Positions 20,175 to 22,434 of a DNA stretch of 64,000 nt are shown in pieces. Each line of letters begins with the position of its first letter. Within the stretch, counting starts at the first letter, position 1. Location: contig NZ_NADJ01000039.1 in the NCBI RefSeq assembly GCF_002196705.1, positions 1 through 64,000 of the forward strand. The letters are read 5' to 3'. Below the pieces are notes generated by a model. The model did not search any database, was not told where the DNA came from, and worked only from the letters and a program-made list of their open reading frames with translations. Source of the stretch: Desulfosporosinus sp. FKB (GTDB taxonomy: Bacteria > Bacillota > Desulfitobacteriia > Desulfitobacteriales > Desulfitobacteriaceae). The position numbers were made by a program, and so were the translations under genes.

Positions 20175-20780
20175 CTATTGTTTCCTAGATTCAAAATGGT
20201 AAACATTCTTTTCAGTTATTAACATGGTCATTTTAACATCATGATCATCCACAGGGACTTGATCAATGACTTGACATTCAAAACCTATAGCAATTCGGGG
20301 TACGGTCGGCTTGATCCGCATAAAAAACCGATCATAATAGCCTCCTCCGTATCCCAAACGATTCCCCTGCAGATCAAAGCCTGCACCGGGCACAAGGATT
20401 AAATCAATCTCTGAAGGCTCTGTTTCACCAAGCTTCAATTTAGGTTCACGAATTCCCCAAAGTCCCGGTTCAATATCCTCGCTGAGATTGCGTACTTCAA
20501 TTGACAGAAGTATCCCTTGAGGCGCACAACGAGGCAAGATAAGTCGTTTTTTCATGGCAAGGGCAGCCTCAGCTAAGCCCGTGGTCTCTGCCTCATCGCG
20601 AAAATTAAGAAACAGCATGACAGTCTGAGCCTGTCTATAGTCTGATAAGGCCAAAACCTTCTCCTGAATTAAACGGCTCTTGTCAGCTCTTTCTTTCTCC
20701 CCCATACTTCCGCGCTGGGCTAAACAGGATTTGCGTATGATACCCTTTTGCAATGATGTCTCCTTACTCATCTCTTGCAC
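20175..20780 (-). CDS. 5-formyltetrahydrofolate cyclo-ligase
   Basis: This enzyme converts 5-formyl-THF to 5,10-methenyl-THF using ATP. The 201-residue protein has the basic N-terminal block, the LPRCAP region and the signature LVPGAGFDLQGNRLGYGGGYYDRF. It starts at GTG 20780 or ATG 20771. It lies 11 nt upstream of the formate dehydrogenase operon in the same direction, which fits a one-carbon metabolism context. Confidence 0.93.
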   Translation of the reverse strand: MQEMSKETSLQKGIIRKSCLAQRGSMGEKERADKSRLIQEKVLALSDYRQAQTVMLFLNFRDEAETTGLAEAALAMKKRLILPRCAPQGILLSIEVRNLSEDIEPGLWGIREPKLKLGETEPSEIDLILVPGAGFDLQGNRLGYGGGYYDRFFMRIKPTVPRIAIGFECQVIDQVPVDDHDVKMTMLITEKNVYHFESRKQ

Positions 20781-21060
20781 TGCCTTTCGGTAAAATCACA
20801 TGTTTATTAGAAATATTCGATCAATAGCGGCAAACTCCTTCTTCTAAATTTTAATTTTTATTATGTATAGTTAGAATTTTTAAATTATCATTATACCAAA
20901 ATATTGAGCTATAGAATTCATGAATATTTGATGATATACAGCATAATACGATGGTTTTCTACATTAATCAGACAATTGCGCTAATTAATTCTAGAATTAA
21001 AGTTTAACTATAAATGTTTTATTGAGCTTGCATTATTTCGAAGTTGTTCACATTTTTTCA
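20781..21060. other. AT-rich gene-free segment beside the DnaA-box cluster
   Basis: No ORF of substance is present. The segment is very rich in A and T, and the DnaA-box cluster lies directly to its right. It could act as an unwinding region or simply hold the promoter of the cyclo-ligase gene. Confidence 0.35.
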
Positions 21061-21111
21061 ATCTATACGGACATGTTTAGGAAAAGTCTTAACGTTTTTT
21101 AACACACATTT

Positions 21112-21286
21112 TTATCCACAGCCTAATCCCCAGTTTAACTGCCTTCCCGGAAAGTTATCAACATTATCCACAGGGTCTGTGGGTAACTTTATCCCAACTG
21201 TCCACCTTTATCTTAAAACCCTCAACCCGCTATCTATACTTATCTACAGACTTATTCACATTATCCACAGTTTTACCTTATCCACA
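21112..21286. promoter_or_regulatory. DnaA-box cluster next to tsaD (gcp)
   Basis: Four exact TTATCCACA boxes lie at 21112, 21164, 21261 and 21278. Near matches are at 21155 (TTATCAACA), 21240 (TTATCTACA), 21252 (TTATTCACA) and 21178 (TTACCCACA on the minus strand). That is eight sites in 175 bp, nearly all in one orientation. No dnaA or dnaN is nearby, so this is more likely a DnaA-titrating cluster than the chromosomal origin. Confidence 0.75.
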
Positions 21287-21325
21287 GCACCTTACTGCCA
21301 AGGATATTTTTCTTTCAAAAGAATA

Positions 21326-21366
21326 CGAAACAAAGCGAGGAAATCTAACGTCCTCGCTTTGTTTCG
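21326..21366 (-). terminator. Terminator of the tsaEB-rimI-tsaD operon
   Basis: A perfect 16-bp stem (CGAAACAAAGCGAGGA and its complement) with a 9-nt loop is followed on the minus strand by TATTCTTTT. It lies about 35 nt past the tsaD stop. Confidence 0.85.
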
Positions 21367-21399
21367 TCGAATTCATTTTCATTTAAACCACAATAATCA

Positions 21400-22434
21400 C
21401 TATAGCGACTTTAAATTTAGTCCTGGAACTGCATTCAATGTCCAAGGTGCAGCGTCTCCTGCGAGGAAATGATAGTAGCCAGCCGCGGCAATCATTGCCC
21501 CATTGTCTGTGCAAAACACCGGTGAGGGATAAACTAAACGTACTTTTTGCCGGGATAACTCATACTCAAGAGATTCCCTTAATAAACGATTTGCTGCAAC
21601 TCCACCCGCTAAGAGAAGCGTTTTAACCCCAGTCTGCTGAAGAGCAAGCAGTGCTTTGTGAACTAGAACGTCAACAACTGCTTGCTGAAAAGAAGCCGCT
21701 AAATCAGGGACATTTAAGGTTTCACCCCGCATACGGGCAGAATTCAAAGCATTCAAAACAGCTGACTTCATTCCGCTGAAACTAAAATCCAAACTTCCAG
21801 GCTCTAACATGGCGCGCGGAAATTTAAACGCTTGCTCATTACCGTCTTGAGCAGCTTTTTGAATCTGAGGTCCTCCTGGATAACCTAAACCCAAAGCTCT
21901 GGCCACTTTGTCCAGAGCCTCACCTGCCGCGTCATCCCGAGTATATCCCAAAACTTCGTATCTCCCATGATCTTTAAATACAATAAGATGCGTATGTCCT
22001 CCAGAAACCAGAAGGGCCAAAAGAGGAAATTCCAGATCTTGATGTTCCAGGAAATTGGCATAAATATGCCCTTCCAAGTGGTTTATCCCTAACAGAGGAA
22101 TTCCGGCGGCATAAGCCATAGCTTTGGCACCGGAAACGCCCACCAGCAGAGAACCCACGAGTCCTGGTCCATAAGTTACCGCAATCGCTGAAAGATCTTT
22201 AAACCCAACGCTGGCCTCGGCTAATGCCTGTTCCACTACCGGACGGATATGAAGGCTATGCTCGCGGGAAGCTATTTCCGGTACCACGCCTCCATATTTC
22301 TGATGAGTCACAATTTGGGAAGAAATAATATGGCTGCGTAAGTTTACCCCATCAACTAAAACAGCGGCAGAGGTCTCATCACAGCTCGTTTCAATGCCTA
22401 AAATAGTAATCTGCTTCTCCTGACTCACCGTCAT
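21400..22434 (-). CDS. tsaD: tRNA N6-threonylcarbamoyladenosine transferase TsaD
   Basis: TsaD transfers the threonylcarbamoyl group to A37 of ANN-decoding tRNAs. The 344-residue protein has the ASKHA start GIETSCDETSAAV, the metal motif HLEGHIYANFL, the LLVSGGHT block and LLAGGVAANRLLR. Its ATG overlaps the rimI stop (ATGA). Older literature calls it gcp. Confidence 0.97.
   Translation of the reverse strand: MTVSQEKQITILGIETSCDETSAAVLVDGVNLRSHIISSQIVTHQKYGGVVPEIASREHSLHIRPVVEQALAEASVGFKDLSAIAVTYGPGLVGSLLVGVSGAKAMAYAAGIPLLGINHLEGHIYANFLEHQDLEFPLLALLVSGGHTHLIVFKDHGRYEVLGYTRDDAAGEALDKVARALGLGYPGGPQIQKAAQDGNEQAFKFPRAMLEPGSLDFSFSGMKSAVLNALNSARMRGETLNVPDLAASFQQAVVDVLVHKALLALQQTGVKTLLLAGGVAANRLLRESLEYELSRQKVRLVYPSPVFCTDNGAMIAAAGYYHFLAGDAAPWTLNAVPGLNLKSL

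Follow-up and report, generated by a model that had tools for sequence, protein, structure and literature searches.

DnaA is the protein that starts chromosome replication. The origin, oriC, is made of DnaA boxes and an unwinding element with DnaA-trios, and is usually found at dnaA. The cluster of boxes described here, next to tsaD in Desulfosporosinus sp. FKB, belongs to the already known class of extra-oriC DnaA-box clusters. In Bacillus subtilis, a strain from which six such clusters have been removed initiates early (see the reviews PMC5295017 and PMC13220808). The weight of these clusters is debated, since a strong effect is seen only when all six have been lost (PMC5295017). The region downstream of gcp (that is, tsaD) and ydiF is region 4, a strong one, among the DnaA binding regions of the in vitro study of Smith and Grossman (2015); it counts among the extra-oriC clusters and has 10 predicted sites, with a Kd of 0.15 µM for ATP-DnaA and 0.33 µM for ADP-DnaA, and at 55 nM the preference for ATP-DnaA is 16-fold (PMC4447404). 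An earlier note on the Desulfosporosinus DNA had pointed to a B. subtilis DnaA-box cluster near gcp, and B. subtilis DnaA does bind this region in vitro. In Escherichia coli, datA has boxes pointing in the same direction at optimised intervals, in an intergenic site downstream of genes, while in the cores of the DARS elements box I stands head to head with box II and ADP-DnaA is preferred (PMC5742627).

We think that the tsaD cluster is probably an ancestral extra-oriC DnaA-binding locus, the positional ortholog of the B. subtilis gcp-ydiF cluster, which sequesters the initiator and restrains initiation. Its position after tsaD, its polarity and its fixed spacing are found across much of the Bacillota. 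Within an incomplete search of the open-access literature, this deep, polar and spaced conservation appears to be undescribed so far.

The DnaA boxes and their surroundings

The window, i.e., the whole stretch of 64,000 nucleotides that was analysed, was searched for DnaA boxes, defined as TTATNCACA with at most one mismatch. Eight boxes, five exact and three with one mismatch, are packed into the 175 bp from 21112 to 21286; the earlier note had seen the same eight sites but counted four exact boxes, one too few. From one box to the next, the intervals measure 43, 9, 14 (this one reaching the inverted box), 62, 12, 9 and 17 bp. Box 1 (TTATCCACA, exact, 21112-21120, plus strand; column conservation in the genus 0.94) stands 43 bp before box 2 (TTATCAACA, one mismatch, 21155-21163, plus; 0.97), which is the first member of an abutting pair completed by box 3 (TTATCCACA, exact, 21164-21172, plus; 0.98). 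Box 4 (TTACCCACA, one mismatch, 21178-21186; 0.95) is inverted, lying on the minus strand, and its spacing of 14-15 bp is held across most of the order. Box 5, in the outer arm (TTATCTACA, one mismatch, 21240-21248, plus; 1.0), comes 12 bp before a second abutting pair formed by box 6 (TTATTCACA, exact, 21252-21260, plus; 0.99) and box 7 (TTATCCACA, exact, 21261-21269, plus; 0.96), and box 8 (TTATCCACA, exact, 21278-21286, plus; 1.0) is the closest to tsaD. In a density scan at 180 bp the cluster scores 13 and the rest of the window at most 3; the same scan never gave a score above 4 in 60 simulated windows. The tsaD-side cluster is thus by far the densest DnaA-box cluster within the window. 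One further box with one mismatch (TTGTTCACA, 21044-21052, plus) lies outside the conserved stretch, and its membership in the array is not supported by the conservation of the sequence.

The cluster sits inside the intergenic region 20781-21399, which extends all the way from the gene for 5-formyltetrahydrofolate cyclo-ligase (20175-20780, minus strand; Pfam PF01812) to tsaD (21400-22434, minus strand; Pfam PF00814). A perfect 17-bp inverted repeat at 21325-21367, between tsaD and the cluster, is probably the transcription terminator of tsaD, although it escaped a strict scan for terminators. No structured RNA was matched in Rfam between 20000 and 22500. Inside the 34-bp gap that separates box 1 from the pair there is a GCCTTGTTC-like stretch (21137-21150), partly conserved in the genus, to which another protein could bind.

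The AT-rich segment that had been pointed out beside the cluster is indeed there: the flank at 20781-21111 is 74% AT, compared with 57% for the window. A DnaA-box cluster adjoining such a segment could be taken for a secondary or former replication origin that has gone unrecognised. However, the AT-richness is typical of the genus (a mean of 73% in the 150 bp beside box 1) and inconstant across the order (47-76%). The genome also has its standard oriC cluster at rpmH-dnaA-dnaN on contig C25, with a box geometry unlike that of the tsaD cluster, and no DnaA-trio-like run was found in the tsaD cluster, where the best match was 3/6 against 4/6 at dnaA-dnaN, by what is a weak test. With an oriC of different geometry elsewhere and no trio-like run here, an origin next to tsaD was rejected as extremely improbable; the earlier note had already rated it the less likely reading, and the presence of dnaA with its own box cluster on contig C25 agrees with that. 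An extra-oriC locus that binds DnaA is the reading we keep.

Position, polarity and spacing across the Bacillota

Within the genus the array is nearly constant. The tsaD gene was found in 59 of 60 relatives, and most of the same-genus loci carry the same array beside it, with spacings that shift by only 1-2 bases. Across 24 members of the genus, mean column conservation is 0.97 in the boxes, 0.70 between them and 0.53 outside (Mann-Whitney p ~4e-22). In the sister families of the order a core is kept, consisting of box 1, 42-45 bp, the abutting pair, 14-15 bp and the inverted box; the outer arm has often shrunk or disappeared, and the spacer between the boxes is unalignable across the order. 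The unit of pair and inverted box occurs once in the 5.1-Mb genome of the strain, with up to three mismatches allowed. A looser, sequence-only profile built from the core, called R1, finds a second, related site in the same genome, on contig C30. The R1 element is present in all 29 genomes of the genus, and by hand comparison 24 of the 28 genomes in which tsaD was located have it no farther than about 5 kb from that gene; in the other four (G004, G013, G023 and G024) it is on a contig other than that of tsaD.

This pattern bears on the idea that the boxes are there by chance, or were simply inherited, without any function, in a slowly evolving intergenic region. All copies near one gene could conceivably share such an inheritance. 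But the sequence between the boxes has diverged, to the point of being unalignable across the order, while the boxes and their spacings have been kept, and unrelated loci show the same spacing again. The recurrence of the 43-9 or 12-9 spacing at such loci supports a functional geometry. Chance or ancestry without function is therefore strongly disfavoured, and we give it next to no credence beside a conserved locus for DnaA binding.

Beyond the order, R1 has matches with E ≤0.01 in 337 of 398 genomes spanning the phylum, the weaker of which include other DnaA-box clusters. Among the genomes listed in both the match and the tsaD tables, which were compared by hand, at least 45 have an R1 match after tsaD, nearly all of these being within 2.3 kb of the gene and on the opposite strand. 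A census of the 3' flank of tsaD was made in 90 genomes, each standing for one family except that two families contributed two genomes each, and dinucleotide shuffles provided the expected numbers of boxes. The first 600 bp after tsaD contain 363 boxes with up to one mismatch, against 62 expected, and 169 exact boxes, against 2.7 expected. The abutting pair is found on the strand opposite tsaD in 45 of the 90 (0.03 expected) and on the sense strand in none. Box 1 accompanies it at 42-45 bp in 26 genomes, and 21 genomes have a box 12 bp from it, arrangements that the shuffles never produced; among the same-strand offsets from the pair, -12 recurs in 21 families and -42 to -44 in 23. As to polarity, the strand opposite tsaD carries 317 of the 363 boxes and the sense strand the other 46, and at 30 of the 90 loci, where 600 bp on each side of the gene were compared, there are 19 boxes upstream and 123 downstream. 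Some of the census genomes were picked with the knowledge that they had an R1 match, and the figure of 50% may for this reason be somewhat high; the enrichment and the polarity are too strong to be accounted for by this choice. Several families have no such cluster.

The gene on the far side of the cluster changes from lineage to lineage, being cyclo-ligase-like, murC-like, lgt-like, radical-SAM-like or a convergent ydiF-like ABC-F gene (outside the window these names were read from the sequence, with no family search behind them), and tsaD is the constant neighbour. In the Bacilli the cluster sits between two converging gene ends. These observations speak to a local role, in which bound DnaA acts as a repressor or activator of an adjacent gene, as it does at some B. 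subtilis clusters. At other sites in B. subtilis, DnaA does regulate genes (PMC4447404), and the cyclo-ligase gene of the window has a promoter-like match (21061-21032, minus strand) close to box 1. On the other hand, promoter-like matches are at the level of chance (4 vs 2.9), and a next gene that varies from family to family, and runs convergently in the Bacilli, leaves no shared promoter to control. As the far-side gene is inconstant, control of one neighbour is unlikely as a general role; a promoter or operator was rejected in that capacity, and a local transcription element seems improbable to us. The DnaA-binding locus that we favour is tied to tsaD itself: one gene, one strand and one spacing over much of the phylum point to selection on the arrangement as such.

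The link to B. subtilis was examined with a B. subtilis TsaD sequence that served only as a search probe; it retrieved 80 loci, mostly from named Bacillaceae. The Bacillus comparison covers B. spizizenii, whose TsaD is 99% identical to the probe, and sister species, B. subtilis 168 not being among the loci read. Between gcp and ydiF of B. spizizenii, on the strand opposite gcp, there are boxes at 191, 148 and 139 (spacings 43 and 9), and then at 117 and 108 (spacing 9); the layout in the sister species largely matches. The window and these Bacillus loci have in common the 43-9 spacing of box 1 and the abutting pair, and the rest of the array differs. Judged from these close relatives, B. subtilis gcp-ydiF resembles the window in its place after tsaD, in having most of its boxes on the opposite strand from that gene, and in the box 1-43-pair arrangement. 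It differs in its neighbour, the convergent ydiF, whereas the window has a co-directional cyclo-ligase gene, and the outer arm and the inverted box 4 of the window form a layout unlike that of gcp-ydiF. The earlier note had supposed that the position might be conserved between Bacilli and Clostridia, and had proposed a comparison of the tsaD intergenic region across Firmicutes. In that comparison the cluster does recur in related genomes: it follows tsaD in about half of the 90 family representatives, and in the B. subtilis group it stands at gcp-ydiF with its 43-9 spacing unchanged. That polarity and spacing are fixed goes beyond what that note had seen.

Possible roles in the control of initiation

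By analogy with the B. subtilis clusters, we infer a function in the control of initiation, with titration of DnaA as the probable activity in Desulfosporosinus sp. FKB; initiation would be restrained by titration or, less surely, by ATP hydrolysis of the datA kind. In the mechanism we have in mind, DnaA on boxes of the same direction would form an ordered, head-to-tail oligomer that favours ATP-DnaA, and this oligomer would keep the initiator away from oriC, delaying or limiting re-initiation. Since the locus mostly lies in the half of the chromosome nearer the origin, its copy number should climb during replication and make it a larger sink for DnaA. By a hand count, tsaD is in the origin-proximal half in 30 of 42 complete or near-complete genomes; its distance from dnaA ranges from about 8 to 47% of the chromosome, a spread that excludes a fixed distance from the origin and leaves a tendency. 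Since B. subtilis shows a strong effect only when all six clusters are gone, the tsaD cluster by itself may have little influence. What its conservation offers to the debate on extra-oriC clusters is a set of precise targets for mutation, namely the 43-bp interval and the abutting pair, as well as a prediction of DnaA-bound loci in many unstudied species.

Simple titration has no need of a fixed spacing. The spacing therefore hints at something more than titration, and makes an activity of the oligomer, for instance ATP hydrolysis as at datA, a serious alternative. Here a DnaA oligomer of uniform direction would trigger ATP hydrolysis, going beyond the storage of ATP-DnaA, with the 34-bp gap perhaps bent by an HU-type protein; a bending protein in this constant gap between box 1 and the pair is speculation on our part. 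The boxes of the cluster do have a fixed spacing and a common direction. Like datA, it is intergenic, downstream of genes, and made mostly of same-direction boxes at constrained intervals, save for the one inverted box in its core, which counts against the comparison. The preference for ATP-DnaA known at the B. subtilis counterpart region (PMC4447404) is a further likeness. The neighbour genes are different from those of datA, and the likeness of the window cluster to it is one of architecture. It also speaks against this alternative that B. subtilis is without IHF (PMC13220808) and has, according to a 2026 review, no known regulator of the nucleotide state of DnaA. We regard hydrolysis triggered at the cluster as a tentative proposal, rather unlikely as things stand. 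The same doubtful standing applies to its broader form, in which the phylum-wide and architecturally fixed tsaD element, together with a second one at comFC/hpf, would act in the datA manner, an oligomer of ATP-DnaA inactivating the initiator. If true, the tsaD element would be a regulator of nucleotide state, of the very kind that the 2026 review calls unknown for B. subtilis.

DARS1 and DARS2 are also extra-oriC boxes with conserved spacing and position, and the inverted box kept by the window and its order could recall their head-to-head cores. In the census, however, no opposite-strand offset from the pair recurs across families, and a DARS-like head-to-head arrangement was rejected as a general rule. 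The tsaD cluster has mostly same-direction boxes, and its B. subtilis counterpart favours ATP-DnaA. Given the head-to-head core and the ADP preference of DARS, it appears to be a poorer analogy than datA. The sequestering locus remains our preferred account of the cluster.

Other clusters with related spacing

The R1 profile also revealed a second recurrent cluster, located in many families between comFC, often together with a zinc-ribbon gene, and either hpf or a gene for an amino-acid transporter or amino-acid-binding protein. Its spacing of box 1, 43 bp and pair is the same as in the tsaD cluster. It was seen in the genome of the strain itself (L098, C30:137455-137535) and at L206, L208, L210, L212, L214, L220-L223 and L309-L311, the neighbour genes having been checked with Pfam in two of the loci. 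In complete genomes of the genus this cluster lies ~104-137 kb to the left of oriC, and it is missing from the top-20 list of DnaA binding in B. subtilis.

A third cluster, with spacings of 43, 32, 12 and 9, is found in the family of the window between argH-like and nicotinate phosphoribosyltransferase-like genes (L211, and also L306, L307 and L308, which are ~275-306 kb from dnaA). Two genomes belonging to one family have DnaA-box clusters between genes for ribonuclease J and an L,D-transpeptidase-like protein (L217 and L224). In one genome (G226), the dnaA-dnaN interval (L112) shows that oriC itself can have the 12-9-14(inverted) spacing otherwise seen at extra-oriC clusters.
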